A stretch of DNA of 64,000 nt. Origin: Isoetes taiwanensis (lineage: Eukaryota; Streptophyta; Lycopodiopsida; Isoetales; Isoetaceae). Where the stretch lies: assembly GCA_021234155.1 (NCBI GenBank), contig JAJEKV010000051.1, positions 8,452,105 through 8,516,104 on the forward strand. The letters run 5' to 3'. This document shows positions 696 to 38,900 of the stretch, in pieces; the first letter of the stretch is position 1, and each line of letters begins with the position of its first letter. The notes beneath the pieces are model-generated. The model searched no databases. It was not told where the DNA came from and saw nothing but the letters and a program-made list of their open reading frames with translations. The position numbers and the translations under genes were made by a program.

Positions 696-1110
696 TAATG
701 GTTAGGATTTTTCCTCCCCTTTTGATCCAACGGTTAAGATTGATTTGCACCAAAAAGCACCTTTTAAGGGACCTTCCTTGCATCTTCCCTTTAAAAATCA
801 AGGGCCAAGATTTCACACGCCTCATCAATTTTTCATGGATGGGGTGCATGGCCCATGCATGGCCCATGCATGCCCCCATCAAAAAAAAGGGCCATTTAAG
901 TGCCACCTCAAAAATTAGACGGATAGGATTAATCTCTACCCACATTCAACCCCCCATAGGACCCATCAAATAATTGTATATATATAAGAGATATATACAA
1001 GTTTTTGTACTATGAGGGGTTTACTGCAAGAGGTGTACTACAAAGGAATTTTGCAAATTCAACAGGCTGCAAAGACTTTATTAACCTGTTATTGTTTCTT
1101 TGAGTAGTTG
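696..1110 (-). promoter_or_regulatory. TATA module copy 1 (subtype A)
   Basis: First of six related copies in the window. From left to right it holds CCAACGGTTAAGATTGAT, a cluster of GCATGC/CATGCATG motifs at about 841-885, GACGGATAGGATTAATCTCTACCC, and the core TAATTGTATATATATA at 971-986 followed by ACAAGTTTTTGTACTATGAG. The flank to about 1110 is shared with the copy at 8.7 kb. Read on the minus strand the core gives a TATA box followed by a leader. Whether it works as a promoter is inference. The window ends before any gene it might serve can be judged. Confidence 0.6.
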
Positions 1111-3185
1111 TACTATGAGTAGTTGTACAATCAATGATTATAGGAGAACAATCTTCGCATAATAATTTCAGCAAAAAACGTGGTTAATTCATCCTCAAAT
1201 TGATCAGCATAATGTCCCTATATAGGAAAGCACAAAACCTTCTTATTTGGTTTTCTCTCTCTTTACTATTAAAAATGCGAATAATATGTACCTTTCCCTC
1301 ACATTTATGCATAGATATATTTTTTTGGATGGTCACATATACAATTCCACTTTCTCTCTCCCAACAGTTGTAGTTTTATATGTGTTTTGAATGCCTACCA
1401 AATTAAATATATCCATTGACAATCCCCAAGTACCCAAAGATCAAGAAATTATCGCGGCAACTTTTAAGCTATCCTTACTTTATGATATGAATATCATGTT
1501 CAAGCAAAACTATAATAGAATTAGCTCCTTCCCATTCCAATAAAAAAAAAGGAAGGAAGAAGAGACGCCTAAGCATGATGCATTGTTTCTTAGTTCTACA
1601 TCAATCAAATTCAACATCAATTTGAAGTAGCGTGCATGAAAAACATTTGTACAAATAATTTAGCAAGATAGAAGTAAAAGTCACTCCATTCAGCAAGGTT
1701 AAATTGAAAAGGCAAGCTAAAATTTGAATTAAACGGGAAGAGTCGAGCTATAGCCGAAGAAGCCAAAGTAAAAAATAGCATTTGATGCATGATGTCGAGA
1801 AAATACATGATAACAACATCCATGCAACCTACCAAGTAGTTCCACAACGTCTAATACTACACAAAGCCATGTTTTCTTACATGGTCATATTTAAACAAAT
1901 TCAAGTGTTGCGCATTTACTTAGTCGTCAATTGCTACCATTTGCTAGCATTCTAAATTAATTCAAGTGTTGCAATTGAATACGAAACCCAAAAGGCAATA
2001 GTGGTTGCGACTTTGCATTGCCACTAAAATCAAGGCCAATAGTGTTTCCTCGTTAGTTTTGAAGTGAAGTGCTTAGCTTAGTTTTCCATTGCTAGTAGCA
2101 GTCAATATGCTTGTGACTCATTCAAAGGGTAATGAAACAACAAGTCTTCACATGTGCGCCCACTGCACATGCAAACACACAACATGAAAATGATATCATA
2201 GAATTGGGGCAGTGTAGGCGACACCTCTTGAGTGTGTATTGGCAAATATGTTCGAGGTGTTTATTCACACTAATTGACCACACTAGTTCACACTAGTTGA
2301 GGTGCTTATTCATGGTGACTTAGTAAATGGATGTTAGCCAACTTGCATAACATTTTAGGTTATGTTGTGTTTCTGCATGATTTCAGCATGTGTCTTTCAG
2401 GCATGATGTTCAATAATTAAAGCATCTATGGTCCAAAGCATTGTGGAGTTAGTTTTATGCAATGTTGGAAGTAGAAATGCATAAATATCGTATCGATGTA
2501 TAAGGCAATCTTAAGAAAATAGTTGCCATCTGAAGGAGAACTTACGCAATCTCTTAAGTGGCAAGGTCAATGTGCATATGGAAACCGTGGATCGTCCAAC
2601 TATAAGTCCAGGTGGAACCGAAAAGGGAGGTAGGCTTTGCGTAAATATCTAGATTTTCAACTATAAGTCCGGTGGATCCGAAAGGGAGTGTCGACTTTGC
2701 AAAAATATCTAGATTTTCAAGTTCATGGTAGACATGCAATGGACTCGAAACTCAATAAGCATACCTATCGATGTGATAAAGAAATTTTTAATAAATCGCT
2801 AAAATTCCGGAGAATAGATCCTATTATTAATATGACCGGCTGGGGAGTAGTTCCATAATAGTCAATAGGCCTTTCCATATCAACAGTTGTCATCCAGGTG
2901 GCACCATATCAAAGAATATTAGTAAGTCGTTGGACTATGAACTTTGGATCTTAGTAACAACAAAACTGTATGGCGGTGATTCTCGAGACGTTTTTCCCCT
3001 TCCCAAAGGGCGTAAATATGACTAGTGGCGTAAATATTTCACATCAAATATGCAAAGCCAACACAAAGCTAATACAACCAATAAATTCCAATGAATTTGT
3101 TCTAGGCTTATTAAAGAGACTAATTTGTGCCAGTTATGGGCGAAATTGTAGCTCAACCAACTAAGCTGCTACTCGAAAGAATTGT
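1111..3185. other. Intergenic or intron-like, no gene seen
   Basis: AT-rich sequence with only short scattered reading frames and no protein motif I recognise. The only structure noted is the small tandem repeat at 2598-2718. Confidence 0.5.
2598..2718. repeat. Two-copy tandem repeat, 61-base period
   Basis: Two imperfect copies (2598-2657 and 2659-2718) begin AACTATAAGTCC and end AAATATCTAGATTTTC. They differ at about a dozen positions. Confidence 0.85.
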
Positions 3186-3188
3186 GGG

Positions 3189-3446
3189 ATGATATCATTT
3201 GGTCGGGCTAATAAACTTAATGTACAAGCAAGAAGAATCTGGTGGACTCCCATGTCTTTGGGTGTGAAGAAGTTCTTCCCTAGTACTGGAGAAGGTTCAA
3301 GCAAAGATACACCATGTCCTGAGATTACTAGATTGGCTGAAGTAGAAATTCTTGAAACTGATGAAGCAAATGCTGCCAGTGAGGAAGATGCTGACGAAAA
3401 TCTGATCATGCAACCCAACCAGGTTTATTTTATAGCCTCTACTTGA
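3189..3446 (+). CDS. Possible exon, unidentified acidic segment
   Basis: An 85-codon open frame whose second half is acidic (LAEVEILETDEANAASEED) and reads like coding sequence. A possible splice donor follows the codons for MQPNQ near 3420. No domain is recognised. It overlaps a frame of similar length on the other strand, and its neighbours on the minus strand are gene fragments. I treat it only as a possible exon relic; it may be chance. Confidence 0.2.
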   Translation: MISFGRANKLNVQARRIWWTPMSLGVKKFFPSTGEGSSKDTPCPEITRLAEVEILETDEANAASEEDADENLIMQPNQVYFIAST

Positions 3447-4038
3447 AGCTTGCTTTATGCATATTCAGCCTTGTTTTTCTGTTTAATATGTTTGTTGGTG
3501 AAGGGCGATAAGCTGAGTAAAATAACTGCTGGTAAGAGAATTAACAACCAAAAAAGAAAAGGCTAACCAGCTCACATGTTTCAAGTAGCAGTTCAACCAT
3601 ACCAGACCCACTAAAAACGATACACCCCAAATTTGCGGTAAGAGGCGAACTCTTTTCACCTAATCCATAAGAGGATGAGATCGTTCGCTTTCGCCGGGCG
3701 ATGTCAAACTCCCCAGAGACGTAAACACCAAGATTTGTGAGCTTAATGTCCAAACTGTATGCACCGCAAGAATCACAAACTCGATTTCATATCTTTGAAA
3801 TGAAGGCCTACCATTGATTGCATTTGCTTCTCTCCTAATAAGCTGCCATCGCCCACAGTTACGAATGCAAGATGCAGGATTATTCGCTCCTCAAATCTAA
3901 ATCATCTCCCTTGGAATTTGTACCCTCCCTTTGAAGGCTAAATAATCCGTAAGATCGGCTCTCACACATGGATCTTTCTTGCTCCACCGCAAAGAAGCAA
4001 CTCCCGGCTACAACATTTTAGATGCAAATTTTGAGTCT

Positions 4039-5246
4039 TTAAGGAATCATAAAATTGCAATTATTCTCAACAAAAGGACTACTATGGGCATTCTCTATAT
4101 ATATTGCATCCAATGCAGATATAGACAAACCTAAATGCATGGATTTGCAACCACTACATTCTGCATCTGAATTGTAAATGTGTAGAGCACCTATTTTCCT
4201 GACAGCTAAATTAACATTATGAAGAGGCACAGGTTCAAGACTATTGACATCCCAAAGGCTTGTCGCCTCCTCTTCTCCAACAACTAGCTTTCCTTCATTT
4301 CTCCATTGCAGTGGAGAACTGAAATCCATTTGCGTCACTGCTGTTATATCATATAAAGATATAACTTTGAGACCACTGCCCCAGATGCCAAAAGTGGACC
4401 ACATGCTATACCACCAGAGAGGGCAATCACCAAGATCGGTCCTCCTTGCCACCCACCGATGACATTGACTCGACAAATCGCTTTCGACAAACTGCCGCAA
4501 GGCATTACTACTCAACAAACTGCCGCAAGGCATTCCATCAGGAGATGATCTATCTTTCGAGGACAATGTGCCTTCTAGGCTAGTTGGTGTAGCGGGCCAT
4601 GGTTGAGACTCCGAATGGTAAGCGGCTATAGATTTATCATAAAAGTTACAAGAACAGAAAGCAGGATCAAGGGCACTTCTGCAAAGCGGCGACAACATAC
4701 TTGGTTGAACATCCATCCGTACAAGAGCCCCGACACGATCAACAGCCTTGCCATACATTAGCAAAGAGTCCATCGGGACCTTTATATTGTGTCTTCTCCG
4801 CAAAGACAATACATGTTTATGATGCAACAGATTGTTTGCTCCAGTGTTACAAATGGCGGCATCCTGAAAATAGGTCTCAATTTCTTCAACCATTATTGAA
4901 ACATTCTCATTTGTCATATTTCACATGAAACGCTTTGGCATTAAACAATTGTCAATAACCGGTAATTCATTTTCTCATTGCCTTTTGCATTGCTTTTAGC
5001 ATTGTTTAATCCTCGGTTAAAAGCATTCTCTCCATTAACTAGTCCTTGGTTAATTATCGCTCGATCTGGACTCACCTAGTTTTGTGCACATGAATTTCTC
5101 AATGCTAGAAAGTTTCATCTGAATGTCAGAAAGAATATCTTTTGAAGGATTGGCAACCTGAATTATTTCTCTAGTCTCCTTTAATTCTGCAGCCAACTGA
5201 TTGACCCTCCCTTCTAACAGAGCAAGCCTTTCTTGAAGTGAAGATG
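4039..5246 (-). pseudogene. KIN14B-interacting WD40-like protein fragment
   Basis: Two blocks on the minus strand appear to belong to one plant protein resembling KIN14B-interacting protein At4g14310 (transducin/WD40-like family). The upstream block, 5246 to 5076, reads as a coiled-coil exon containing ERLALLEGRVNQLAAELKET and ILSDIQMKLSSIEKF. It ends at a good splice donor, G|GTGAGT, at 5075. The second block, 4917 to 4039, is a 292-codon frame with FGIWGSGLKVISLYDITA, LQWRNEGKLVVGEEEATSLW and a Cys-rich end. The family assignment is from memory of the conserved central region and is not certain. The N-terminal part is missing: PPR debris starts just upstream at 5784. I interpret this as a truncated fragment and not a working gene. 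Confidence 0.5.
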
Positions 5247-5783
5247 AGATGTTCCTTAATCACTTCCAAAACCAATGCTAAGCCTACGAACAATAAAGAA
5301 TCTTTTTGCATCCATCATAACAGACAGTGCGGGATCTTTTTCTATAGGTAACAGTTAAGACAATCCCTTGAATACACATGTCAACCTAAAGGAAAAACAT
5401 GCATCTTTGTGGCTAGGCATAAAACAAATTTAAAAATCTTAGAAGCATCCAAAGTCCGTCTGCTTAACTATTTATCAGGAACCGATAACACATATTCACA
5501 CAAATACCTAGCATTGTTTAATCGGCGGCAAGATGGGCTTAATTAGAACTATCCCAAACCGCCCATGCTTATAAAAATACAACATCCGAAGGGGAATGGT
5601 CTGGACATGCAATGGCCTGAAGGACATGGCTTAATATTTGCCGACGAGAGAAAGATAGAGCACAAATTACAAAGGTTCAAGTCATCTTTAATTAGTGTAA
5701 CTACTATTAGCTCAGCGGCAAAGTTGCCAGAAAACATAAGAAAAATAACCATCTCTGAAAGGAAAAAGAATCTATAAGAACAC
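5247..5783. other. Spacer between two gene fragments
   Basis: No conserved coding motif recognised on either strand between the WD40-like fragment and the PPR fragment. The short open frames here overlap on both strands and look like chance. Confidence 0.4.
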
Positions 5784-6485
5784 TCAACAAATAGAAAACA
5801 TACCCGATAAAAACTTCGACCACCAATAATCTGTCCTTCCACCATTCCAGAATCTTTGCATACGTATAGATTTAATTGCTCGCATCCATGTCAATCCGAA
5901 GTTCATAACTAATGCACAACTTACGTGCATCATGTTGTGGATCCATTTATCTTGAGCTAAGGATCCCAACCAAGTACACACATCCATTACAGTCATGTAC
6001 GTTATCGTATTTGGTTGTGGTCCTGTAAGTTGCATTTGTTGAAAATGCTGAAAGGCCGCATCATAATAACCACAAAGTTTGTATGCTTGAATCAAGGCAG
6101 TCCATAAAACCACGTCTCGTATATCCATTTGGTAAAATCGCAACTCTGCACTCTGAATTTGTCCACCCTTACCATACAACGTTGTGAGACTGTTCCCCAG
6201 TTCAACATCTAGATTTAAATTGTCCTTCTTAATAAACTCATGTACCTTCTTAACTTGAACTATGGCTTCTGCATTACATTCAGGAGCAAGGCCAATCAAG
6301 ATCATTTGTTCTAATAATTGTAGAGCTTGGTGTAGGACCCATTCCTGGCATATGCAATGACAATGGTACTCCACGAAACAGAAACAGCATCCTTCTGAGG
6401 CATTTCATCAAACAATACGTGTGCCCCTACCAAGCATCCATAGTGGACATATGCAACCAACATTGTAGTCCATGAGACTACATTT
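5784..6485 (-). pseudogene. PLS-type PPR protein fragment
   Basis: Minus-strand reading from 6485 gives VVSWTTMLVAYVHYG, then LFDEMPQKDAV, an SWSTIVIAYARNG repeat, and then the 196-codon frame 6374-5784 with GNSLTTLYGKGGQIQSAE, RDVVLWTALIQAYKLCG and FQQMQLTGPQPNTITY. These are alternating P, L and S pentatricopeptide repeats, a family of plant organellar RNA-binding factors that is very large in ferns. No targeting peptide and no E or DYW end is visible. The frame shifts at about 6375, and after the TYMTVMDVCTWLGS motif the sequence drifts into non-PPR text. Only four or five repeats remain, so this is a fragment. The same strand carries rbcS upstream and a WD40-like fragment downstream. Confidence 0.8.
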
Positions 6486-7448
6486 CGATGAGACTACATT
6501 TCGATGAGAGGAACTGTATACAACACCATATCTCCTTCAAATACCTGGTCTGCCGTAATAACCTGCACACCACCACTTCATATCTTATGGCATGAACAGT
6601 TTTCCCATAGAAAATAGCATCTAGCCAATCTTGCTCACATCAAAATAGTTGAACGCAGATTCTAAAACCCAGCAAACAGAGAATGATTCTCCACCCAAGC
6701 ATAATATTTTGCACACGAATTTTGGCACATGTACTTGGTAATTCACACAACTATCTAGAGAACCAAACAAAAGTGGCATGCTTCCTTCCGGTTGCATTGC
6801 ATCTGTTGCGGCTTCGATCAATTATTCCATTCCCACTGTGGAAAGGCCTCCCCCAAGTAAACATATCAGAGAATGTTCTAAGTCAAAACAACAAGCACAA
6901 TCATAAGGGAATCGTGAAATGAAAACGGGTCCGATCCCGCACTCCACATGTTATACAAACCTTATATATTTAGTTCTTTGAAAAGCTTCAAACCCCAAAG
7001 CATTCAGTGGAAGGCGCCATAGTCAAAATGCATCAAGGAAAGCACATGCAAACATTTCCGGATTTACAAACAGAAGGAAACCGCCGCTTGGAAGCCCATA
7101 CCTTGGTAGTCGAAAAACCAATTTGGTTTCAATGCTCCAAGAGCAAATCGTCAATTCAAGATTATAAAACCTCCTGAACGCCAATGATCACTAGTTAATG
7201 CTATTGCTCAATCTCATTGCATGCATACCTTGAGAGTTTGACAAGGACATTAATGAGAACAATGCAAAAAAAAACACTTCCAACTTCAAGACATCTGCGC
7301 CTAGAAAGAGTTTGGATTTTTATTAAATTAAAACCATGGCATTAAAAATCTTGAAATTTATTGAAAATGGAAGCAGATGTTCATTGAACATTCATTTGCC
7401 ATGTTACATAAATTATGGTCAGAGCTTTTAGCACGGTAAAGAATCATA
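6486..7448. other. No gene recognised
   Basis: Lies between the PPR and rbcS relics. The imperfect local duplication GATGAGACTACATTTC occurs near 6475-6500. No protein motif is recognised. Confidence 0.4.
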
Positions 7449-8435
7449 CTATCTTCGTGTAGGCCTATGCACTATAGAGGCCACACATTGTGTCTGCTTT
7501 CTTGGTATCAAATCCAAGCATCCCGATATAGCAGTTAGGATAAACTTTTTGCATTCATCAATCTCTCTCAAGACCAAGGCGGGATCATTGCATCCAAACA
7601 TGGGAAGCTTCCACAAGGTCCAATAACGTCCATCGTAATAACCGTGCATCCTAGAATTCTCTCTCAATATATGCCCACCCTACAAAATATAACCTCATAA
7701 GAAAAAGTGAGTAGATCCCGGAATAGGCAACATATTTAAAATGCGTAATGATAATAAAAACTCATTTCTAAATTATAGATGGTGATCACGGCATTTCCAT
7801 ATTAGATCGATGACACAAAGATAGGACCAAGCAAACAAATAGATGTAGAGTTTTGCTAATCTAGCTGCGAGATCTTATGCCATCCACTAACCCAATGAAA
7901 AAGAAAACGCAACTTTCATCTCCCAATATTTATATTACCTTGTCAAACTCGAGACGGGGATCCGCCTTTGGAAATCATATAGTCAATCTCCTTCGAATAG
8001 AATCGAGGGAAGAAAGTGGAGGAACATAAGACAAAGTTTCAAATCTCGATTGGTGGCGGATTCACAATGCGCAGGAGGATCAACATAAAATGGGAACCAC
8101 GGAAAGAAAATGAAGAACCCGAAGCTCAAAAAGAAGAAATAAAACTTACCGCATGCATGTTTCGGCCACATTCTCGATGAGTTTTTTGCTTCAATCTGAG
8201 GGCTTTGAATTGAAATAAGATTTCCAGCAAAGGGATCTTACCGATGGGGACGATCTAAACGTGGAAGGAGATACAAATGAAGTGTTCACACCTCACGATC
8301 CGCACAGCCTCCACGCTAACCCATACCACAGGCCACGCCAAGAAATAACCGCCATAGCCCAAAAACAAAGGCAAGAGCTACCCAACCGCCATAGCCGCGG
8401 CTTCATCCGCAACCTACCAAAGACAATGGGCGGGG
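7449..8435 (-). pseudogene. rbcS: RuBisCO small subunit relic, three exons
   Basis: The small subunit of plastid RuBisCO. Exon 3 (7679-7449) encodes [11 protein letters not shown], then [17 protein letters not shown] and [15 protein letters not shown], ending at TAG; its acceptor is TTTTGTAG. Exon 2 (about 8068-7939) encodes RFETLSYVPPLS and KEIDYMISKG, then the WIP/LEFDK region, with donor GACAAG|GTAATA. The exon 2/3 boundary matches the usual plant rbcS intron site. Exon 1 (to donor 8150) reads as a Ser-rich transit peptide only if frames are switched, and its start is not fixed. Several single-base changes break the frame: one base short at AAAAAG near 7540, one extra at AAAGCAG near 7493, two short near 7955-7965, and more at the exon 2 start. 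Module copy 2 lies just upstream and would supply the TATA box. Either a decayed copy or unpolished sequence. Confidence 0.85.
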
Positions 8436-8800
8436 GCGGATGCGAGGCGATTTGGCGGGGGATTATTGGGGGTTTCAACGTGGGCCATCCGGATCCGAGA
8501 TGGACGGTCCAGATGAAATGCCCCAATTTCAAGGGCCGAGATTAAAAGCCCCAAAATAAGGGGGCTGCTTGGGGTGATTCGACGTGTCACTTTCTGGACC
8601 GTCCATCTCAGAGATGGACGGCCGAGATCAATCTCTACACCATGTTGGTAGACCAAATATAATTGTATATATATAAGGATATACAAGTTTTTGTACTATG
8701 AGGGGTTGTACTATAAGAGGTTGTACTAGGAGGGATTTTGCAAAGTCAACAGATTGCAAAGACTTTATTAACCTGTTACTATTTTTTTGAATGAGAAATT
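8436..8800 (-). promoter_or_regulatory. TATA module copy 2 (subtype B), upstream of rbcS
   Basis: It holds an imperfect AAAAGCCCC/GGGGGC inverted motif (8545-8570), the palindrome CCGTCCATCTC-A-GAGATGGACGG (about 8600-8622), CGAGATCAATCTCTACAC, and the core AATATAATTGTATATATATA at 8656-8675 followed by a direct-repeat tail of TTGTACTATGAGG type. Read on the minus strand the TATA core lies about 230 bases upstream of the rbcS exon 1 region, a plausible promoter distance. The right flank (to about 8795) matches module copy 1 closely and then diverges. Confidence 0.65.
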
Positions 8801-8824
8801 ATACCATGTGAAACCCAAATACAT

Positions 8825-8950
8825 AAACTTCAAACACTAAACCTGACAGTAACCTCTAAAATCTTAAACCCTTAAACCTAAACCAATGCTAGTAGTCAAT
8901 ACTTACTCTGACAGTAAATCTTAAGCCCCTTAACCTAAAACCCATGTATC
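8825..8950. repeat. Degenerate telomere-like stretch
   Basis: Several phrases of CCTAAA/CCTTAAAC type (for example TTAAACCCTTAAACCTAAAC at 8872-8891) resemble the plant telomere repeat CCCTAAA but are irregular. The stretch also holds an internal duplication around CTGACAGTAA. It may be chance AC-rich sequence. Confidence 0.3.
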
Positions 8951-11439
8951 AAAGGACATTACAGACCTTGGGAACCATAGATATTTACCTTAAGGATACT
9001 TAGTTCCAACCAATCAATATATATTGAACATGTAGATGGGCAAATTCTTGGTCAACAACCATAGCCAACTTGGATCAACCTCTCAAGTCAATCTCGCTAA
9101 GAACAATCTTCTTTACGCAAGGATGTTTGTTGAATGCCCTTAGAAAAAGTAGGCTACTAAAATAGCATACAGAAAGTGTGTGTACAAAATGGAATAAAAT
9201 AAAATGCACAGATAGTTTGAAGTGTTAGAGCCAAAGATTATTGTCGAGGAAACTTTAACTTGCATCCTTCTTTTTTTATATCAAGCATCCCAAGATTACA
9301 CTATGGCAATAAAAATCGGGCAGGAAGTTAAAGCCCAAGTACGAACTAGTAGTTTTGCATTGCTACCAAAGATGTGACATCCGACAGAAGGTCTATCATG
9401 CCAACTATTAGTGTTCTAAAGGATGAAAGAGTTTGTCTATACTTTAATCAAGAGTTTGTTAGGAATGTTTTATAATGTGATGGGACAACCTTATGAATTG
9501 GCAATAATTATAATGGTAGTTAAATGGCAGCTTCTTAACTCCTGATGTGAAATCTAGCTCTAAATAGAATGGATTGTGTAGAGTTTAGGATATTATTGCA
9601 TTAAGACGGTGGTAGTTTATCTATTTATTAGACTTTGGCTTTGTCGACGTGTGTAAATGTAATGGGTAGTCAACACGAATGTACTTGAAGCGAGATTAAA
9701 TAGATATGTGAAGATGTTGCAAATGTTTACACGTTTATAAATATGGTCAAAGGTTTATAAATATGGTCAAAGATCCAAGTAAACGATGAGCATAATATTA
9801 GACTATACTTGGGCTAATGGCCTTGCAAGATTTAATAGCCAAATCTTTTTACCATGCTTAAGAAGGTCTAAAGTTGAGTGTCAAAAATTAAGTTAGCAGA
9901 AGTCATCCTTCAGAGCTAGTAAAGTGGTTCAAAGCATCATAGCACTTGCAAGCATAAGTTTGAAGAAGACATTCAGTAGCTATTTCTGAAGCAGCATAAG
10001 CATTTAAAATGTACCTCCCTTTATTAATGAGATATATGTGCTAAGGAAATACAATTGATTATCTACCAGGATACAAAAAATCCCACTTTAGAATCTACTC
10101 AGGCGCATCAAATAAGCATGAGTGCCAAGCTTTCTTTGCCTCCATTTCTAGTGGGAACAACAGTCATATAAACAATAAGCGATTGGGCCCATTTCTAATG
10201 ATACACGCACATTGCACATTATATATAGAATGTGCATACTCATCTAGAACATTATCAATAGCGAATCTAATTTTCTTTCACCTATAGATTGTGGCAGATC
10301 TCCGCATTGCAAGCAAATCCTACAATAGTCCAAATAAAATGCACAAGATGTCTTGAGATGTTGCTGATGTCTTGCTATAATGGAACAATAGCTCAAAGAA
10401 AATCCTGCACAGGTCATCCACAACATGTTATTGGAGTATAAAGCAGGGTTTTTGAAATGAAAAATGATAGAGAGCCCTTACATTATGAGAGCTTTATCTT
10501 ATATACATAAATGGCAATACATTCCGGAACTAGTTATGCCATTCCGGAACAAAAACACCTTTGGATGTTGCGCCTCACCCTATTTTATCCAACATGGAAG
10601 GACTCAGTTGAAGACAAAGTTGCATTTAAAATGGACCTAGCAAAACAAATGTAAACAGCTTCGTTGATAGTGTCCATACCTTTAATATAATGCCTGACTC
10701 TTGACTCTGCATTATATGGCAAAATATAGGGAAGGTTCAGACATAATCCATTGACAAAACTATGTTTGACACTTTTATGTAAATATGTAGGGCCAACTTA
10801 CTCCCTTCCCATCACGGAAGCATCACTAGAAGAAATCTGGACATGGGTGTCAAGACTGCAATCTTCATAGCTTTAGTGATAGCTCGCATGCTTATGAAAG
10901 CATAAAGCAAGTCTGGAAATGGCCAATTTAACAACTTTCAAGTTACACACATGTTAAATCAAAAGCAAGCTTTCTTACCGAGTGCACCCTGATGTAAATG
11001 GGGAATTTGCCTTCTGAACGCATAAAATCTGGTTACGGACAAACAAAGAACATGGAGTCAATTAAAATCCAGAGCAAGATCTTAAACTAAAGAAACTAAA
11101 GGCTGGATTTGATGAATACCATAGAACCGAATAACTAAGCAACTGATAATGATCCAATGATCCAATCGTACAAATAAAATCTCAAAATTATGAAGAAATG
11201 GCAGATGTTGTTGCTTGCAACATAGGCACGATGAAATATACCCTCACCAGAGCTAGTTATAACAGCTCTTGAAGGCTCAACAAGCCATATTCCCAGGGAC
11301 ATATTTGTTTGCCATGTTCCTTGAGAAGAGCATGTGCTTCGTGTAATGCGGGTTATTTTAAGATGATGTTATGATATCTAGAAAGCAAAGCATTCAACTG
11401 GCCGTAACAAAATTTGTTGCAGCTGTAAAAAACCAAGTT
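8951..11439. other. Long gene-free stretch
   Basis: AT-rich, intron-like sequence with no recognised coding motif. A short phrase at about 9860-9885 (AAAGTTGAGTGTCAAAAATT) recurs in the tandem repeat at 30.6-31.1 kb, so at least part of this stretch derives from the repeat family seen there. Confidence 0.45.
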
Positions 11440-11980
11440 CAAGAGCGCATACCTGGTGGTTTGACTCATTCATGCTAAGCATTTGAAAAATGTATGCCAA
11501 ACAACATTTGTGGACTGACCAATGATCTTTCCAATACATGTTCTTGCACAGACAATAGATCTTTCATTTAGGAGTTATGGCCATATTTTTGCTCAACTGT
11601 AAAACTGTGGCAAGCAAAGACATTAGATCATTTGGCACTGTTTTAGCCCATTTATGCTAAGAATTTGAAAAATGGATGCCTAGCATCAATTGTGGATCTT
11701 CCAGTGACCTTTCCGCCGGATGTTCCTGTGCAGAAAATAGAGCTTTCATTTTGGAGTTATAACCATATTTCTACCCGACTGTAAAACTGTGACAACAAAG
11801 ACATTGCCTGATTTGGCACCGTTTTGGCCCATTTCTGCTAGGAATTTGGAAAATGGACGCCTAGCGTCAATTGTGGACCTTCCAGTGACCTTTCCAACGG
11901 ATGTTCTTGTGCATAAAACAGAGCTTCAATTTGGGAGTTATGGCCATGTTTCTAGTTGAGAAGTTACGGAAAGAGTCAAG
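11440..11980. repeat. Three-copy tandem repeat, about 181-base period
   Basis: Three diverged copies share GCTAAGNATTTGAAAAATG, a GTGACCTTTCC-type phrase, GAGCTTTCATTT and GGAGTTATGGCCAT. The anchor GCTAAG/GCTAGG falls at about 11475, 11655 and 11836. The copies differ by substitutions throughout, so the array is old. Confidence 0.85.
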
Positions 11981-12009
11981 CAAGCTCCAGCTAGAGATGG
12001 ATACATAAT

Positions 12010-24540: not shown

Positions 24541-24542
24541 TC

Positions 24543-28012: not shown

Positions 28013-28512
28013 TCCAAAACAAACCTTGTCAATTAGATCCGGTGGAGGAACTTGTCTCATTTGAGAATTTGCAAGAAGAAGACTAAATGCTCGCTTTGAT
28101 TTTTAACATTTTTCTTCTGGAGATGGAAAATAAGCACGTCAAATTGCAAAATAATGGCAAATAATGCCATTCCAGTAAATATGCAGGGGCTTCCTAAGCT
28201 CGCCAACACTTTGCAAGGAGGCCACAGCTATCGGCACCTATAGTAGACATGTCTCCATTACAATTACCTGCAAATCGGAAGCTTCCACAACATATAGTTC
28301 TCACATGCATAGAAAAGCCTAAGGTACCTCCATTTGATCCCAAGTTTAAAGATTTTGCTTAGAAGAATAGAAGTGAGTTATGTTTCCAAAACAAACCTTG
28401 TCAATTAGATCCGGTGGAGGAACCTGTCTCATTTGAGAATTTGCAAGAAGAAGACTAAATGCTCACTTTGATTTTTAACATTTTTCTTCTAAAGATGCAA
28501 AATAAGCACGTA
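28013..28512. repeat. Two-copy direct repeat, about 150 bases
   Basis: TTTCCAAAACAAACCTTGTC with ATCCGGTGGAGGAAC and the following 100 bases occur at about 28013-28140 and 28384-28510. The copies are highly similar. CACCTATAGTAGACATGTCT near 28237 recurs at 28521, extending the duplication with a gap. Confidence 0.88.
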
Positions 28513-29730
28513 AGGAGGCCACCTATAGTAGACATGTCTCCAGCTGAGTAACATGAGTTGATCAGGACTCTTAAGGCAGCAAGCTGTAACTGAATATCAA
28601 AGCCCATAAGGCAGGTCCTGCAACAATATGCTTCCATGAGGTGTTTAAAATGGCAATCATCTGAAGCTGCATTAGGCAATACATGCATTAGAATGATAAA
28701 AATGACGACTCAAGAATTGCAAACGAACCCATCATAGCCTAACATTACCCCAGTGCTTTGAATATAGAACTCACAACATAACACATGCAAAGCAGACCTT
28801 TAAAACTCACACCATAACATGTCCATTTGGGAGTCAGCCTTTATATAGCTTAGCATGTCCACCACTTCCCACTGGATTATTTGCCAAATGATTCACTCTG
28901 AAGATATTCTTTGCGGAAAGATATTCTTTTGCGGCCATTCATTACCTTTGACAACAAGATGCAAAATGATAGGGAAGAACTCGAGATAAAACATGCAAAT
29001 TTGTGCATATCTTACATCCTAATTTCTCTTCATTCAAAAATAAAGACATGAATTGCAATGGCCGCATCCTTTGTATTCTCGCTTCTAGTAGATCGATGCT
29101 CAAAATGACAAAATCCATCTTATGCTTATGAAAATCAAATAGAAACATTAATCGAGAAATGCGTAATAGCCGTATAAAAATCAACCAGTGACATCGTCAC
29201 TTGGGAGAACTCCCCGGCTACTTTGAGATGTAATGTTTGGGTCTCGACTCATAAAGAAAACGAAAAAGAAAAATCCCTTCCATAACTCGCCATAGTCGCT
29301 ACCATCAGCCGCCAATGCAAGCAAATAAACGTAATAGAATTAAAGGAAGACTTTTACACGCCCTCTCATTATAGAGCAGAGCTCCAATTCCGTCATATTT
29401 GGCCCAGATTTAAAATTACCATAAAGAACCGATCACGAGCAAGAGTCTTGATCAACATTTCCTTTCCAATTGCGTAAAACGAAATGCTAATAAGAACAGA
29501 GCGATTGAACAAAGATTTAGTACATAAATAGGAGCAAATGCAGGAATAATTCTAGATCGGTAATCGCCTCGTAACAAAATTGTTCGCCATGAAACCAAAG
29601 GGTAACTTAGAAAGCAATGCTAAACCAACCTCAACATTATGCTCATCCCAACGAAGGATTCCCCTCTAACTCGAAATGTGGAGCAAAGGCACGGTCCTTT
29701 TGATTGAGAAAATCCTAAGGACCGATAGGA
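28513..29730. other. No gene recognised
   Basis: Nothing coding is recognised in this stretch. TATTCTTTGCGGAAAGATATTC near 28905 is a small local duplication. Confidence 0.4.
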
Positions 29731-30168
29731 TCAGATATTCGATTCTTTCAAGGGTTTTAGAGCTTGCTTTCTATCTCGCCTTCCAACTCCAAGAATAACC
29801 GACATTTCTAAGGAAGCAAAACCGCGGGTCTTCTTCATCGTCGGACGCTCTAGCTCTTCTATAGCCGCACGTAATAGATCGAAAGAGGAGCAAGGTTCTA
29901 ACAAAATCGTTTCTTCTAGGATTTTTGCGGACCACGGATGAACTGTGAAGAAGGCGGCAAGATAGGCGCCAAATTCAACCATTTTTGCGCCAATATTTGC
30001 GCAGATCGTCACATCGCTAAAATGAGGAGCCATCGAACGGTAAGCGAAACTCCAATGGCGCCCACATTGCCGCCATAATACGTAATAATCTAAGAAATCC
30101 AAGTTTCGAGCTCGCTCCGGCGTGAGAACGAGGAGGATTTCAATTTGGCGCTTTAGGATCAATCGCAA
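29731..30168 (-). CDS. 145-codon frame downstream of module copy 5
   Basis: One of the longest uninterrupted frames beside a module. It begins MRLILKRQIEILLVLTPERA and includes YYVLWRQCGRHWSFAYRSM and EELERPTMKKTRGFASLEM, ending KPLKESNI. It has no signal peptide, repeat or domain I recognise. It starts within 20 bases of the module, so part of its 5' end may be module sequence (the LTPERA codons overlap the CTCCGGCGTGAGAAC phrase shared with copy 4). It may be a first exon or a chance frame. Confidence 0.3.
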   Translation of the reverse strand: MRLILKRQIEILLVLTPERARNLDFLDYYVLWRQCGRHWSFAYRSMAPHFSDVTICANIGAKMVEFGAYLAAFFTVHPWSAKILEETILLEPCSSFDLLRAAIEELERPTMKKTRGFASLEMSVILGVGRRDRKQALKPLKESNI

Positions 30169-30375
30169 ATCTAATTGCCGAAAACAAAAGCCCCAAATAA
30201 AGGGGCTCCAAATCTAACGGTCGAAAATAAAAGCCCCAAATAAAGGGGCTTTCGGTGGTGGCGAACGCGGGCCGGCCCAGATCGGAGATGGACGGCCGTG
30301 ATTCAAAGATCTACATTCAATATAATTGTATATATATACAGTATGTGTACTATAAGGGGTGTACTGGAGACGAAA
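30169..30375 (-). promoter_or_regulatory. TATA module copy 5 (short, mixed)
   Basis: Two copies of AAAAGCCCCAAATAAAGGGG (about 30187 and 30231), GGGCCGGCCCAGATCGGAGA with TGGACGGCCGTGATTCAAAG, and the core AATATAATTGTATATATATA (30319-30338) followed by CAGTATGTGTACTATAAGGG. It is shorter than the other copies and has only a half palindrome. Confidence 0.6.
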
Positions 30376-30379
30376 TACG

Positions 30380-30545
30380 CACGTAAGTTTCTATAAGATT
30401 TTTAAGTTTATCAAAGATTCCATTAAGACTATCCAATATTTTGGGAATATTCTTTAAGATTCTTCGAGAGTTTCTAGAGATATATTAACATTCCCCAAGC
30501 TACTGGAGTATTCCTTAAGATTATTCAAAAAATCATTGCAAACCA
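30380..30545. repeat. AGATTC/AAGATT-type degenerate repeat
   Basis: Irregular AGATT, AAGATT and ATTCC units to the right of module copy 5, matching the arrangement beside copies 3 and 4. Confidence 0.55.
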
Positions 30546-30580
30546 CACCCTCCCTTAAGATCCCTACAAAACAATGCCAA

Positions 30581-31095
30581 AATACGCCCTACACGCTTCA
30601 AGTTTCTAGCAATGCGTAACCTCAACTCAAGGGCTAACACCTTTTTACTACCAACTATCAAGGGAGCACATGGCTTAACGGTTATTGGCGTGATTGTCGC
30701 CAAATTTTCAACTTATTCTGCAAGTCGTAGTATTGTCACCAAATTCTCAAAATATTGTGAAAGTGAAATTTGAGCTTAAATAGATCAAGATTCAAAGTTG
30801 AGTGTCAAAAATTAAGTTAGAAGAAGTCAATACGCCCCGCACATTTTAAGTTTTCGGCAATGCGGAACCTCAACTTAAGAGCTAAGACCTTTTTATTACC
30901 AACTTTCAAGGGAGAACATGGTCAAAGAAGTTATTATGATTGTCGCCAAATTTTCAAATTATTCTGCATCTTGTAGTATTGTCACCAAATTCTCAAATTA
31001 TTCTGCAATTGTCATCTGAAAGTGAATTTTGAGCTTAAATAGGTCAGTATCTAAAGTTGAGTGTCAAAAATTAAGTTCGAAGAAGTCAATATAAT
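30581..31095. repeat. Two-copy tandem repeat, about 248-base period
   Basis: Each copy starts AATACGCCC(C/T)(A/G)CAC and includes CTTTTTA(C/T)TACCAACT, GATTGTCGCCAAATTTTCAA and GTATTGTCACCAAATTCTCA, ending GTTGAGTGTCAAAAATTAAG. The end phrase is also found alone at about 9865, and GCTTAAATAGATCAG at about 15890. These are parts of the repeat family that accompanies the modules. Confidence 0.88.
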
Positions 31096-34000
31096 AGTGG
31101 AAGTTGGATTGATCAACAATGCCATATATAGATTTATATAATTGTCTACTAGTCATTTAACAATCTATAACAAGTAATCATTGGTAAATCTCAAAATTCT
31201 ATTTGCTTACATCGAATATCATAATCCACTAATTTATTGCTATCACAGGGTGAATCCAAAAGTGTGTCTTTTAATTTTACCTTCTCAATTATCTCAATTG
31301 TCCTGACAAATGGGAGTATGCATCTAGACCAAAGTCACAAAGTTTTCAATTAAATCCCTCGCCTAATAGCCATTCGATTCCTAATTCAAAAAGCATATAG
31401 AATATTGGGGACGTAGAAGTTTAGGAAAGTTTACGAAAAGTCGCAACATAATATACATTGGTGTTCTCAAAAGACATATACTTTGAATCTCTATGGTAAC
31501 AATGTCTCAATCTCTATGATAAACCCAAAAGCATTAGCAAGAACCACAAAGATTATTGTAGCACATTCGAGTACATATATTTAATGGCCCCCAACCATCA
31601 ATAATATGAAGAGCAAACCCTATAGTAGACATGCTTGCTAATACTAATTTGATTAAAATAAGGGTACTATGCAGCGCACAAACCCTACACAAACAATGCA
31701 CAAAAAAATCCACAAATAACCTTGCAATCAAGGACTCGTTATTATTTGACTTATTTGAACCACTCTAGCAAAGGTGGCTATCTTTCATGCTAATACATGA
31801 AGTTACTCAAATCAAGAACGTAAGTTATTATATGCTTTTAAGCTAGCTCTTTCTCTCATTATTTAAGATCTAAAAGAAAATCTTTTCTTTTGTTTTGCAC
31901 CACCGTGTATTATTCCATAATCGCATTGTGTACAATTCATGACATTCAATGTCAAAACTAAAATAAAGTTCTTATCGACATCAAAAAGAGCTGCAGGGTT
32001 TGTACACAAGCTTGATTTCCAAAGTTAAGTCAAGCGTACCACAACAAAAACCACCATGAGAGCCCTTGCAATTGCTAAAAATTCAAGGGAGACTCGATAG
32101 TTGCAAAAAGGCCATCTTGAAGGGCTTCTCTGCGAGAACATTATACCTTTTACAGCTGGTGGATTAGTGAATCACCAAATTTTGATGTCTGGACATAAAC
32201 TTCAGTAGCCTACATTTTTTTTTGTCTTCAAAGCTATGCCGAAATTAGATGTGGGTCTTCTTGCCATGAAAAACATATAAGCCAAGTTAAACAGGCCAAG
32301 TTTTGTGCTTCCTTTAGCAACCATCTTTCCATGGCGTTCTTTAGATCAATTAAATTCAGTGATTCCCACAATAGACACCATAAGTGCATTTAGTGGCTAT
32401 CCCCATAGAGTTCTATTCAGATTTAGTTGCATTGCTAGAAACAAAAAAACGAGAGATAGCTGATAAAATACCATGTGTATCCACACTTCAGATCTATATA
32501 AACTTGTCTATTTATACCAGCATTTGGTGGGAGGCAAGAATATTTTTTGCAAGTAACAATTTTTTTTGCATGCTTACTATATTGTGGCAAATTTTAAACC
32601 TCAATTGCGATGTATCTAAGATATAAGGAAATTGTGATGTATCCAAGATATAGAACCTCAAGTTTGTCAAATCATAAGTCCAAACATAGAATTGTAAGTC
32701 CGATTGATTGTCTCAATTTAGAAGGGTTGACTCTGATAGAATTTTGAATTTAACTGATAGAGATTGTATCATCGACTCTAAACACATAAAAAGTTATCGA
32801 ATCAAAGAGGACATTTGAAAATGCTTAAACATTTATCCATTGTCAACCTTGTTCCTGAGGTAATTTGTAACTCACCTTTTAAAGTGAAACCATGCCATTG
32901 CATTAGGTCTGCACTGGCTTTGCATTGGGTCCTAATCTGCAAAATGAATGACTATGAAAAATAAACATTGCCCTAATGCTACAATCTCTTTGCTATATTA
33001 AACTCCATTCAAGCAAAGATGCACTTATCTAACACTAGCTTTGAGCAAAGGACAAGTTACTTTTCATCTATTATAAAGTGATCTTAGAACATGGCCATTG
33101 AATCCATATCATGACTTCACAATCTGCTCCCACCCATATAAGAATATGACATGTTCAACAAGGAAAATGTCACAAGACGTTCAACTGTCGTTCAAATAAT
33201 AAACACGACCACCTATCTGCATGCACTAGAGTGACATAGGAATAAATATCGGAGATAATCAGAACCAAGCAATAAATAAATCATTTGTGTAATCGATGTT
33301 CGTGAAATATGCCTCATTCATTTTGACTTGGTCTTGGCATGTCAAATCAACTGTACAACCAGATGCTTCAAGATACTCAAGAACGTAACTTACTATGCCT
33401 AAGTCTTGGGTATCATCAACAGAACGTAAGTCTTGATTGTGCTGCTCATACCCTTGCACTAGTATTCCATCAAACAATATCTTCAACTGTCAATTCATAA
33501 AAGATCACACATCTCTATTTCATTGCTTCCTACCTTATAACTAGAATAGCTTCAAAAAGCTTGAAAATGCAGCACCGAAGATCCATCATACTCAGAAGTT
33601 TCTGAATGGCCAAGAAAGGACTATTGTTTCATCATAAAAAAACAATTGTGCTCCTGCAAACCGCAAGTAAAAAGACCATCAGATTCCATGGATAAAATAC
33701 ACAAAGAAATCACTAGTGGCTTGGATATGGCTGCACAATATCTTCTTGCCCATTTGGGAGTAATAGTGTGTAAGAGCGCGACTTTACTACGCAATAAGTC
33801 ATCACAGGGCCATTAAGCACATCTTAATTGAGGCTATAATTAAAAGTTTGGGAGCTGTCTAATTCTGCCTTTCAAATCCAAGAGTGCATTGTCCTCTCGG
33901 AGCAATTATCGTAATTACTATACCATTCTCATTTTCTCGTGTCATATGACATGGCCGAGGTAAACCTGTCGACTGGTTTTACTTCATGAGGAGGTGGCTG

Positions 34001-34376
34001 CAGACCCAAATTGGCTCGTAGTATATAAAAAGCTAGGCTGGTGGCAAAAAGTTGCATTGGTCGCTAGTAAACATTGCCCACTTTGGCAGCACTAGATGTT
34101 AATGAAGCATTTTACATTCCATCATGATATTATAAGTATGCTAATTCTATTTACATAAATATTTCGGCATTACACTATGTATACACAACATTTAGCAAAA
34201 AAACTTCTTCCAAAATCCTCAAACCGTTTCAAATGCTAAACTTAAAAGGTCACCAGTATAAAGGATTATCATTTTGCCTCTTTCTAGATCAAGATGTATT
34301 TGGTAGATAGTAAGCAAGATCATGCATAACATTCCACCGGGTGTCAAATTGCAAGTTGAACATCAAATTTGTGCCC
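31096..34376. other. Long gene-free stretch
   Basis: AT-rich, intron-like. A minus-strand frame at 33486-33259 (VSYVLEYLEASGCTVDLTCQ) is protein-like but unidentified. Nothing else is recognised. Confidence 0.4.
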
Positions 34377-34625
34377 TCACGGAACCATCCAATGCATCCA
34401 AGCATATGATTTATGCAAAGTTAAGATGTTGCCGTTGAGCTCCATTTCTCTAGAAACCTTGAGCATCTCTTCGCAATGGTTTCGGAGGGCATAATTACTA
34501 ACCATTGATGGTCCATGAGACTGCATTTTGCTTGGGCAGCCTGTCAAATATTCCCCGTGTTTCCTTCGTAATTCCACATTTACCATAAGTAGTCACAACG
34601 CCATGTACCAAAGGTGACGTCTGAG
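34377..34625 (-). pseudogene. PPR fragment
   Basis: Reading from about 34620 gives VHGVVTTYGKCGITKETRGI, then FDRLPKQNAVSWTING, and after a frame change NYALRNHCEEMLKVSREMEL. This is part of two consecutive PPR repeats (the Y-KCG… and …VSW--I signature). At least one frameshift separates the two halves. It is the third PPR relic in the window, again on the minus strand. Confidence 0.6.
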
Positions 34626-37440
34626 GTAAAAACATTCTAGAGAACAAACCATGACTAAAAAAGTCTAGGGCTTTGTTAGGGCAAGCAAACGGTCACTTCT
34701 ATGTCTACCATTAGAGACACGAAGTCTTCGCACTGAATGGATTTGTGAAATACATTTAAGGCACGCGTTTGAAAGCATGATTTACATTAATCGACAAGCA
34801 TGATACATAGACCGATAGAATTTAACTAACCATCAAAACCTAGACAATCAATGATTGGAATCATAAGGGCATTTGTAACGGTACCGCTACCACAGCAAGG
34901 GAACACATTCCAGAATATGGAAAAATAGCCCGACCTTACAAACATCGAGATGTCTAGACTTGCAAAATGCAAACCTTTGGGTGCCGTTCCTCGCGATGCG
35001 GGCAAAACCAAATAGCTCGCCTAATGAACTTAAAGCTATGCCAATAGGGAAAGGATGGGACAATCCACAAATAGATTCAAGAGCACCCTTACCGCCAAGA
35101 ATAGCATAAAGTTCGGCGCTGGCAATCGGTGAATTCCGGGCCAGAGCTGACCAAGCCATGTCTTTGTGGTCGATGAAGCCAATCAATCAACTCCGCCATA
35201 AGCTCCAAAGATATTTGGGCTCACGGAACTCTGATCCAAACAAACTAGAAATGGAGATGCCATACAAAGCGGATGTTTACGGCATTAAGGCCAGGTTGCA
35301 TCTTTGGGCATTAGTAACATGTTAGTTGAAGAAAGGTCCCGTAAGTAAGGGAAATTAACAGGTTGACTTTCTAATCCAGCTTAACGTTGTTTCAAGTAGT
35401 TTCAAAATTTTAACATGCAACCGCTCAAACTCCATGTTAAAGACATCATGGACGCCGATGTCCACATGAAAGACAATATGTGGCGCACTGAAAAAGTGCA
35501 AAATAAATCCTAGTGGAGTAGAGCTATTGGATGCCTCTACCTGGTTAGAAAAGAAACCGCTATAATCTACACTCAACATAACTCTCGATGGAGCTTATTT
35601 GTCCCGACCATGATACACTCAAACTCATATACCATGTTGCGTGATAATTCACAATGTTCTTTCTTTGTATATAGCATAATCAAGAGTTCCGTGGGACCTT
35701 GATTCTAACTATATTTCCAACTTTGTATAACGAAGATCTGAAACAACAAAGAATGCGAGATCCAAAGATGCATGTATGCAACCCGAGAAGCAAAAGGTAA
35801 TGATTTGCAATCCTCTAACAATAATCGCAATTCTCTAATATCATTTGATACACCCTATGTTTGTCTCCATACCCCGTTACATTCAACCAGCCACCACCGA
35901 TTTGCTTAATTTGTGGTAGATCTTAACTAAAGATTTCTCCTTCTTCAATGTTAAACCTAGCATCAAATGTTTTTCACCAAGAAGGTCGCAGATAACTGAA
36001 ATCTCACTTCTTTGTGGGAAAGTATTCACATCATTTTCACGTTTTGGATCCTCCAAAGCCCTATTATCCTATATAATAGATAATTCATCTAACCTTGTCT
36101 GAGGTATTCATAAACCATTTGCTCGCGACCTTTGCTTTTAAAGGTGCATTTGCATGTCCCGCTGTATCATGAACATAACGCATAAATTAGTAGCAAAGTC
36201 CATTCATAACATCATACCTAGCAAAAGATGTAGAAGTATATTATTCACCCATCGGCTGGTATGAAGGTTTTCGATATAATGATGCGACTCATTTGAATAA
36301 ATGCATTCCGCAAAAATCCACTTTGTCACGAGGGAATGAAGCCGTGCAAAAATTATTCTGGCCTGTCACATGCAATTGGGCTGACAACATCATCCTTGGC
36401 ATATCGTGTTGACCTTCTCAATTCACAGTTAGTGGTACATGTGAGATTGGCATGATGAGGCCTGATTGAAGGGCACATATCCACAAAAATTCCAAACTGC
36501 TTGCATAGCTCCAAACAGTAACTCCTTTCAAAAGCTCCACGATGCATCTGCAATAACAAAAACACCACGAAAATTCAGACAGGTTGCATAGTTCCCTACA
36601 TGTTGCAGAATCGCTTGAAGACTGGTTGATCTATCTAAAACTACCTGCTTTAGAGACTGGTAGGTGAAGACGCAGCTAAGGCAGACAATATGCTCAGTTT
36701 AAGGTATCTCAGTTATTAAACAAAATCTATTCCTGAATGGCAAAAATTTGATTTATATACAAATTCACAAAACTGTCAAAGATGCTTAAACTTTGTGTTC
36801 TTTAACCTGGATCTAAAGCACTGATGAGAATGAAAAAGCATAAATATGCTGCTTACCGTCAATTTTGTCTAGTGTTTCCTTTTTGCTAGTAAGAAATTTC
36901 CCCATGATTCCTGAACTACACCTGTTATTAGGTTCAGTAACTACACCAGAGATGGCGTAATAGAATGATTACCACCTGAATATAGAGCATGGTTCAAATG
37001 GGCTTCCGCCGCTGCAACATTAAGATGGTTTAACAATGCAAATTTCAACTTAACATTTAACTAATTGGTAAAGTAAATAGCACCTTCCAGGTGTAGCCAT
37101 TCTCTTTACAGACGAAAATATTCTCCTGTAGCTAGATCTGGTTAAGTTGAGCTAACTCCAGAATAATGATAAAACTCCTAACGGAAATGAAGACAGCGAG
37201 TGCGCTTTTATTGCTTGCTAATAAAATACCCCTGTTTCGCGGAAAAGATTAAACACACCTTTTGTTGGAATGCGCAAGCAAGGCGCAAGATTCCGTGAAG
37301 TAGGGGAGAAAGCGAGCAAACATAGAGATTTTTTACAAGCATTCTGCAGGGAAACCCTAGAATATGCGATTACCGATCTCCATGACACCCAAACTAACGT
37401 TTCACTAAAATCTCTCAGATGGCTGATTTAACAAAAAACG
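34626..37440. other. Unidentified open frames only
   Basis: Frames at 35186-34887 (MAWSALARNSPIASAELYAI), 35579-35355 and 36568-36353 (RGAFERSYCLELCKQFGIFV) are on the minus strand and could be exon or PPR relics, but none has a motif that fixes a family. The remainder is intron-like. Confidence 0.3.
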
Positions 37441-37690
37441 ATGCATGCGATTAGGGCTAAGCTACTCTACACAAAATGCATTTATTTGCCTCACAAAATT
37501 CGTCCACCTTGGGATGCTAATGGCTCCGTTCTCGAGACACCGGAAATCCCCACCGCCATTAGCTATGAACTTGGTGATGATCTTTGCATGGAAGCCAAAT
37601 TTTGTCTATTCGCGGAATACGATAAATAAGAAGAAAGATAAGGAAATCGTGACATCAATTTTAGTACCCGTTGTTGCCTTCAAGCTTTCT

Positions 37691-38041
37691 CTAAACGAAA
37701 TGAGGGCGGCAGCTTTTGCTCTGGCCGCATACAAAGGACCATTTAAAGGCATAGAAGCTACTGGCTCCATATCTGAAACCACGGAGTGATTGAAGACCTA
37801 CACTAACATATTTCGGAGATGCAAAGGCCTTCACATTTCTAACACAATGAAGAACCCTCCCGAATGAAGAGCTCAAAAATCCGCTTTTTTTTTTCTTCCT
37901 TACTCTTTCCTCGAGAGGACCGGCTATGGCGGACCTCCCAATTGTGGCTCGAAATAACACTCTAGCAAATAATCGCACAAGGAAAGAGAGGCAAACCAAG
38001 TGTTCCCCGTTCTCCTCACGCCAATTCACAATAATTAGCAA
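37691..38041 (-). CDS. Possible first exon downstream of module copy 6
   Basis: Two overlapping readings are possible on the minus strand. One is a 116-codon frame that starts MLIIVNWREENGEHLVC. The other, in a different frame near 37790-37690, reads MEPVASMPLNGPLYAARAKA followed by AALISFRESLKATTG and looks more like real protein. Neither is recognised. The position is 340-690 bases downstream of module copy 6, like the exons beside the other modules. Confidence 0.25.
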   Translation of the reverse strand: MLIIVNWREENGEHLVCLSFLVRLFARVLFRATIGRSAIAGPLEERVRKKKKSGFLSSSFGRVLHCVRNVKAFASPKYVSVGLQSLRGFRYGASSFYAFKWSFVCGQSKSCRPHFV

Positions 38042-38379
38042 TTAAATGCCTTGCCACACTGGCATCACCGCACGTCATAAAAATTGGCATCTTTGATCCC
38101 CTTCCATTGTTGTAGCCCTTCTCGGACTTTCTAGCCCCTCACCCTATTCCATAGGCGGGGCGTGGGCAACAACCTTGTCGACACTTAGACCACTCGAACT
38201 CCTCCTATTTAATTCCCTTATCAACGTATACAAACCTTTTATGGACCTAAAATAGACCTTTAGATATAATAAATGCCCCTAACCTAAATTCACAAGGCTT
38301 TATCTCATCCATCGATCTCACACACCTGCCAACCCAAGCAATGACACCTCAAGCTCCACCCACAATTGAATGACCTTTT

Positions 38380-38900
38380 CATTAACGACCAAGATCAAAT
38401 CCCTAAATTCGATGGCCGAGATCAATAGCCCTAAATAAGGGGCCTTTGTATGAACGGCCAAGATCAAACCCCTAAATTCAAGGGCCTAGATCAAAAGCCC
38501 CAAATAAGGGGCCATTTATGGTGGCATTTAATATCATTGACTTTTTATGGATGGCCTAGATCAAATCCCTAAAACCGATGGTCAGATTAAAAGCCCCAAA
38601 TGAGGGGGGGATGCTTGGGGTGTTAATGAGGTGAAAGAAATGCGGGCCGTTCATCTCGAGAGATGGACGGCCGAGATCAATCTCTACCAAAATTTTGGTA
38701 CACCAATAAGAGGGATGCTTTGGGGAGTTACGAGGTGGCATCACCGGACCGGTCCATCTTTGAGATGGGCCTACCGAGATCAATCTCTACCAACATTTTG
38801 TGGCATCAATCTCTACACCATTTTGTATGCTCGCCAACATTTGTGGCACCCAATATAATTGTATATATATAAGGATATATATATATGTATATATAGCTAT
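38380..38900 (-). promoter_or_regulatory. TATA module copy 6 (subtype B, extended)
   Basis: The longest copy. GGCCNAGATCAA occurs several times from 38385 to 38570 with AAAAGCCCCAAATAAGGGGC at about 38490. Then come GGGCCGTTCATCTCGAGAGA with TGGACGGCCGAGATCAATCT, a second diverged leader at 38755-38800, CCAACATTTGTGGCACC, and the core AATATAATTGTATATATATA (38852-38871) followed by AGGATATATATATATGTATA. No AGATTC repeat follows. No further copy is found to the right, so this is the end of the series within the window. Confidence 0.65.

Follow-up and report, generated by a model that had tools for sequence, protein, structure and literature searches.

Transposons of two kinds appear to be the closest precedents for the locus studied here, a 64,000-nucleotide stretch of the Isoetes taiwanensis genome (the whole stretch is called the window below) that holds six TATA-containing modules in one orientation: TA-microsatellite elements such as MuTAnT for the target, and the non-canonical Helitrons of Fusarium for the odd ends. 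MuTAnT, TAFT and Micron, like the family in the window, insert into (TA)n microsatellites (excerpt of PMC4486113). FoHeli, a Helitron2-type element of Fusarium oxysporum, likewise has non-CTRR 3' ends and a T/A-containing target, and self-insertion is discussed for it (excerpt of PMC5148889). The gene-carrying non-autonomous Helitrons of maize share the TC start, the A|T target and the fragments of several genes in one element (excerpts of PMC5148889 and PMC13317346). Gene-fragment cargo is also shared by Pack-CACTA and Pack-TIR elements, for which closely spaced tandem insertions have been proposed as the route of capture (excerpt of PMC13317346).

Our analysis indicates, with a probability of roughly 0.8, that the six modules are junctions of head-to-tail non-autonomous DNA transposons carrying plant gene fragments. 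That the modules are parts of mobile elements at all is nearly certain. The analysis established shared termini, full-length copies elsewhere, one insertion with two related uninterrupted sites, the genome-wide copy number and gene-fragment cargo in several elements. Each module is best read as a junction between two elements: one finishes with its 3' end (CTCATAGTACAAATACTTG) and its neighbour starts with a 5' end that is usually TC(N)2-3 TATATATATACAATTATATT, a short (TA)n tract lying between them in most cases; the typical element would run from that start to that end and lie between A and T in a (TA)n tract. The modules are better explained as such transposon ends than as a promoter common to working genes.

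Module junctions and copies elsewhere in the genome

A preliminary description of this DNA had counted six same-strand cores, 6.7-8.5 kb apart, with none from 39 to 64 kb, and this count holds. The core AATATAATTGTATATATATA occurs without mismatch at 8656, 15791, 23583, 30319 and 38852, and a sixth copy, earlier placed at 971, has two mismatches and spans 967-986. All six lie on the + strand, neighbours are 6.7-8.5 kb apart, and chance matches to the pattern averaged 0.04 over 100 shuffles. Between 39 and 64 kb no match was found even with up to four mismatches allowed. Two extra minus-strand matches with three mismatches (15815 and 23607) belong to the 3' ends that face the cores. When about 500 bases around the six cores were aligned, a run of invariant columns appeared at the core and patchy similarity elsewhere.

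The genome searched comprised 1,658,258,908 bases in 1110 contigs. The 5' core, with up to one mismatch, gave 612 + 617 matches (1,229) and the pattern read backwards gave 9 + 6 (15), while the 3' end pattern CTCATAGTACAAATACTTGTATATA, with up to two mismatches, gave 626 + 662 (1,288) and its control 0 + 0. Sixty copies of 1800 bases each were fetched out of 100 listed exact cores and analysed together with the six window copies (66). Colinear homology was found in 849 of the 2145 pairs, starting between -40 and +19 of the core in 691 of them; it ended 50-499 bases downstream in 690 pairs, sooner in 140 and beyond 500 in 19. Nine pairs ran for at least 1178 bases, reaching the end of the fetched sequence, and in eight of these the homology started no more than 44 bases before the core; L042/L043 also continue upstream. 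As the homology of the copies starts at the core, the head is a boundary and not a local motif.

Four pairs were followed over 10 kb. Of the five whole elements in the window, E4 and E6 were sought at full length, with copies found for both. In all four followed pairs the homology halted at a second fixed end, which reads ...CATAGTACAAATACTTG or close to it and is followed by (TA)n or the next head. E4 matches a copy on C56 (L061) at 99.63% over 7838 aligned bases, and E6 matches a copy on C11 (L062), whose 3' end reads CATACTTG, at 94.16% over 8665; the corresponding values are 93.3% over 8256 plus 95.2% over 1662 for L063/L064, and 94.6% over 6996 for L065/L066. Other contigs hold long partial relatives of the E2 region 4039-8560, with 94% over query 266-4522 and 96% over 1502-4522 as the best values, and the interior of E2 recurs on many contigs as differing combinations of the same pieces (68 matches; best 40 of 563 candidates).

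Since in the window the 3' end of one unit is found immediately upstream of the 5' end that follows, the segments between junctions are elements. In this way five complete elements and a portion of a sixth are joined head to tail, with one element of 6.7-8.5 kb between successive junctions (Table 1). E1 reaches its 3' end outside the window, about 755 bases to the left (locus L081), and beyond that end come a diverged head and, about 1.8 kb further, another 3' end; with this extra element-like unit left of E1, at least seven units are therefore stacked. Successive units are likewise joined head to tail at L068 on C140. Short elements of about 1.4-1.7 kb, with ends as in the long ones, were seen at L068 (positions 6675-8088 of the reverse complement) and in E1. 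Internal repeats were also observed: E4 contains a direct duplication of 1.04 kb whose copies are about 99% alike (window 20322-21949), and E3 a 181-base unit in about 2.7 repeats (window 11433-11954).

Table 1. Elements and recognised gene fragments in the window, with positions counted from its first base
Feature	Position	Strand	Remarks
E6, whole element, 8537 bp	30339..38875	-	TCCT + core at 38875-38852; 3' end CATACTG at 30339, one T below usual
E5, whole element, 6722 bp	23617..30338	-	5' core abuts E6 3' end directly; without TC motif
E4, whole element, 7782 bp	15825..23606	-	TCAC + core at 23606-23583; 3' end ...AAATACTTG at 15825
E3, whole element, 7131 bp	8684..15814	-	TCAC + core at 15814-15791
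E2, whole element, 7682 bp	998..8679	-	TCCT + core at 8679-8656
E1, first part only	1..991	-	TCTCT + core at 991-967
TA-rich flanking sequence, right border of array	38876..38895	.	
rbcS C-terminal exon fragment, in E2	7452..7679	-	PF00101 5.5e-13, profile 39-97 of 97
At4g14310-propeller-like fragment, in E2	4042..4920	-	PF25465 1.1e-24, profile 44-109 of 285
PPR fragment, in E2	5787..6493	-	two frames, 5787-6404 and 6314-6493
PPR fragment, in E4	18837..19485	-	two frames, 18837-19301 and 19258-19485

Landing site, termini and the enzyme

A pre-core motif (TCCT, TCAC, TCACC, TCTCT or TCTAT) was present in 46 of the 66 5' ends and tracked the downstream subfamily, with TCTAT in subfamily b in 10/10 cases, TCCT and TCAC in a in 19/20 and 5/6, TCTCT in c in 6/7, and TCACC in d in 3/3; the DNA preceding these motifs is mostly TA-rich. 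On C261 (L053/L069) an inserted element is preceded by CCATGGTATA and followed by (TA)n TCCC. In two related loci the sequence is uninterrupted, CCATTG(TA)n TCCC in one and CCATGG(TA)n TCCC in the other, and matches the joined C261 flanks at 83% and 78%. From the comparison of this insertion with the two unoccupied loci, the element therefore extends from TC to CTTG and sits between A and T in (TA)n, the exact base of the insertion point being ambiguous within the repeat. All 33 collected 3' ends are CTTG, partly owing to the collecting pattern, and the E6 end (CTG) stands outside this collection.

These ends are partly Helitron-like, combining a TC start, an A|T target and multi-gene cargo without CTRR or a consistent hairpin. 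The enzyme is most likely of the Helitron-like rolling-circle type, supplied in trans, an assignment to which we give about an even chance. The Helitron_like_N domain is abundant in the genome (at least 150 matches scored, 1813 candidates), with no link to these ends seen. Acting in trans, such an enzyme would move whole units, and the array would grow when a new insertion hits the (TA)n left beside an older element. Among the neighbours of the 60 fetched 5' ends, 20 were head-to-tail and 8 head-to-head (p 0.036), a weak bias because each neighbour type came from a different search pattern and the 60 copies were a non-random choice among the 100 listed.

Several observations weigh against this account. 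Among the 66 5' ends, the TC motif is missing from nine, and another 11 are ambiguous; the 3' end reads CTTG and not the Helitron CTRR; and no consistent hairpin was found in the 33 3' ends, one end type (2/33) having a 7-bp stem with a shuffle frequency of 0.01. No transposase or Rep-helicase was identified in the scanned frames of the window and loci, and three Helitron loci, two of them 94% alike, do not have these ends. All 150 listed PF14214 matches lay more than 10 kb from any listed end, the closest at 53 kb, the end lists holding 100 of the 1,229 5' ends and 100 of the 1,288 3' ends. Self-insertion into the terminal (TA)5, which predicted that at doubled-TC 5' ends the far 3' end would abut TATATATATACAATT, failed at both loci that could be judged: other TA-rich sequence follows the 3' end at L078 and L079, and of the other two fetched loci (L077-L080), L077 gave no 3' end and L080 a poor candidate with six mismatches. 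The E6/E5 junction also misfits self-insertion, as the TC motif missing from E5 is, by eye, absent from the outer side of E6.

As a separate observation at L078, TATCCT-type motifs flank one element on both sides, mutually inverted, at about position 6345 of the reverse complement. As to an autonomous partner, neither a Helitron nor a Mutator-like element (MULE) could be linked to the ends, in searches that left out the hAT, CACTA, Harbinger and Tc1/mariner families. The excerpts of two papers on Isoetes (PMC8566536, PMC10541799) mention no Helitron, and the literature on Isoetes/Selaginella Helitrons and on Helitrons with TA repeats or arrays, as far as our incomplete coverage goes, has no description of this family. 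More tentatively, the sequence features might mark a separate lycophyte lineage of gene-capturing elements, with TC...CTTG ends, no 3' hairpin, a moving enzyme still to be linked to them, TA-microsatellite landing pads and head-to-tail arrays of differing gene-fragment mosaics, whose TATA heads would possibly drive chimeric transcripts.

A cut-and-paste element of the Tc1/mariner type, which would have short, imperfectly inverted ends (TATATACAA.TAT) and duplicate TA on insertion, appears unlikely. By eye, the 5' head TATATATACAATTATATT shares about 16 of 18 bases with TATATATACAAGTATTTG, which is the 3' end in reverse complement, but this likeness is largely TA repeat, 3' ends with CAAAAACTTG fit less well, and the TC(N) motif, which belongs to the element by its association with the subfamilies, falls outside the supposed inverted end. 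The C261 site is compatible with a TA or TATA duplication, the two being indistinguishable inside (TA)n.

MULEs that target TA microsatellites and carry gene fragments, as MuTAnT or Pack-MULEs do, are an improbable source. MuTAnT has the same (TA)n targeting (excerpt of PMC4486113), Pack-MULEs carry gene fragments (excerpt of PMC13317346), and the MULE transposase PF10551 is present in the genome (at least 150 matches scored, 1021 candidates). However, no long terminal inverted repeat was seen, and at C261, with the element taken from TC, the nine bases to the left (CATGGTATA) and right (TATATATAT) differ, so that this one site shows no 9-bp duplication. In addition, none of the 150 listed PF10551 matches was within 10 kb of a listed end, the nearest being 36 kb away, although this comparison has low power.

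Gene-fragment cargo and its significance

In window 1-40000, 109 minus-strand frames of at least 55 amino acids and 108 plus-strand frames were scanned against Pfam. Among the minus-strand frames, PPR families matched four, an At4g14310-type propeller one and RuBisCO_small one. Recognised cargo was thereby placed in two of the five whole elements (E2 and E4), always on the module-ward strand, and these scans recognised none in E3, E5 and E6. An SVM_signal match in a minus-strand frame (0.0091) and a DM match, the sole match among the plus-strand frames (0.0067), were taken as chance.

The rbcS piece, which the preliminary description took for a first exon, proved to be C-terminal, and by eye it keeps the 3' splice site of the intron. 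Its 21 protein matches in the genome comprise itself, six at 65-75% identity, of which five contain a stop codon, seven at 51-53% without stops, and seven weaker ones; the seven stop-free matches are likely true genes. Clusters of likely true rbcS genes were observed at C1057:6739819-6838053 and C1109:6898-36680. The ARP7-like start proposed in the same description was not recovered, as no actin/ARP family appeared among the 109 minus-strand frames, a scan that did not reach shorter exons.

Cargo was also recognised outside the window. When the leading 1.2 kb of each of the 60 copies was scanned, malic enzyme was the one Pfam match among 111 module-ward frames, and none of the 78 reverse frames matched. 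In six larger loci, the 56 module-ward frames scanned gave GRAS, which lies within the L065 element, and, in L067, an E+ motif; the 47 reverse frames gave PLD_C, whose position was not traced, and an RVT_1 match that is weak (0.00094, below its cut-off) and belongs to an L069 frame beyond the element's 3' end. These scans omitted 12 of 68 module-ward and 19 of 66 reverse frames, mostly outside elements. PLD_C may lie inside an element, in which case it would count against a strict orientation rule. For frames of at least 70 amino acids, the leading 1.2 kb of the copies had 111 on the module-ward strand and 78 on the reverse, but the larger loci had 68 and 66 of at least 72 amino acids; frame counts alone therefore do not show polarity.

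Cargo acquired as spliced (cDNA) copies was considered and rejected: gaps of about 80 bases in E2 relatives resembled introns, but the two joints checked had no GT...AG and one was bounded by a direct repeat, and the gaps therefore look like deletions.

A core promoter spread by recombination before unrelated working genes, the idea of the preliminary description, would suit the TATA-rich head and the recognised window gene pieces on the strand read away from it, but it is highly improbable and is set aside because the homology spans whole units to a second fixed end, the cargo being moreover partial and degraded and the interior of E2 recurring as mosaics. Of the promoter-bearing mobile repeat it had also suggested, mobility and the single orientation stand, and the promoter before genes gives way to a module made of joined 3' and 5' termini. 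Its argument against simple tandem gene duplication is supported, as is its reading of unrelated gene pieces behind a one-orientation mobile repeat. As a refuting outcome it had named modules that were terminal parts of one known transposon with no link to genes; the first half of this is borne out, since the modules are best read as termini, while the link to genes exists, as cargo.

If the modules are junctions of stacked, gene-carrying transposons, a lycophyte genome has a family with more than 1000 ends that copies and reshuffles host gene pieces and is recent enough that a 7.8 kb pair is still 99.6% identical. Such a family would give rise to chimeric genes and also to false gene models, the latter illustrated by the degraded rbcS exon that resembled a gene. 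The fixed landing site together with the head-to-tail stacking would make the mechanism directly testable.

The rest of the window provided further observations. The A+T-rich DNA right of the array contains a 1.55 kb direct duplication (42570-44845). The segment 50001-54000 has 52-56% G+C, the window being otherwise mostly near 35-43%. A 68-base tandem repeat with a palindrome around ACTCGCGAGT lies at 56216-56525, and a HECT-domain exon candidate, just above the Pfam cut-off, lies on the minus strand at 61652-62032.

Comparison with known systems

A Helitron-like superfamily disrupting (GAAA)n microsatellites was reportedly described in Lepidoptera by Coates in 2010; it likewise inserts in a microsatellite, with another repeat and in another host. 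Unlike the maize Helitrons, the window family has CTTG in place of CTRR, no consistent 3' hairpin, (TA)n landing at the sites seen and no linked Rep-helicase. No CACTA-type ends were seen in it, which sets it apart from Pack-CACTA, the CACTA transposase not having been searched for. FoHelis encode a Rep-helicase and carry defined asymmetric inverted repeats as well as a hairpin at one end or at both (excerpt of PMC5148889), none of which was seen in the window family. MuTAnTs are mostly 200-300 bp long, with long inverted repeats and 9-bp duplications (excerpt of PMC4486113), whereas the window family shows no 9-bp duplication at the one site, reaches 6.7-8.5 kb and carries gene fragments.

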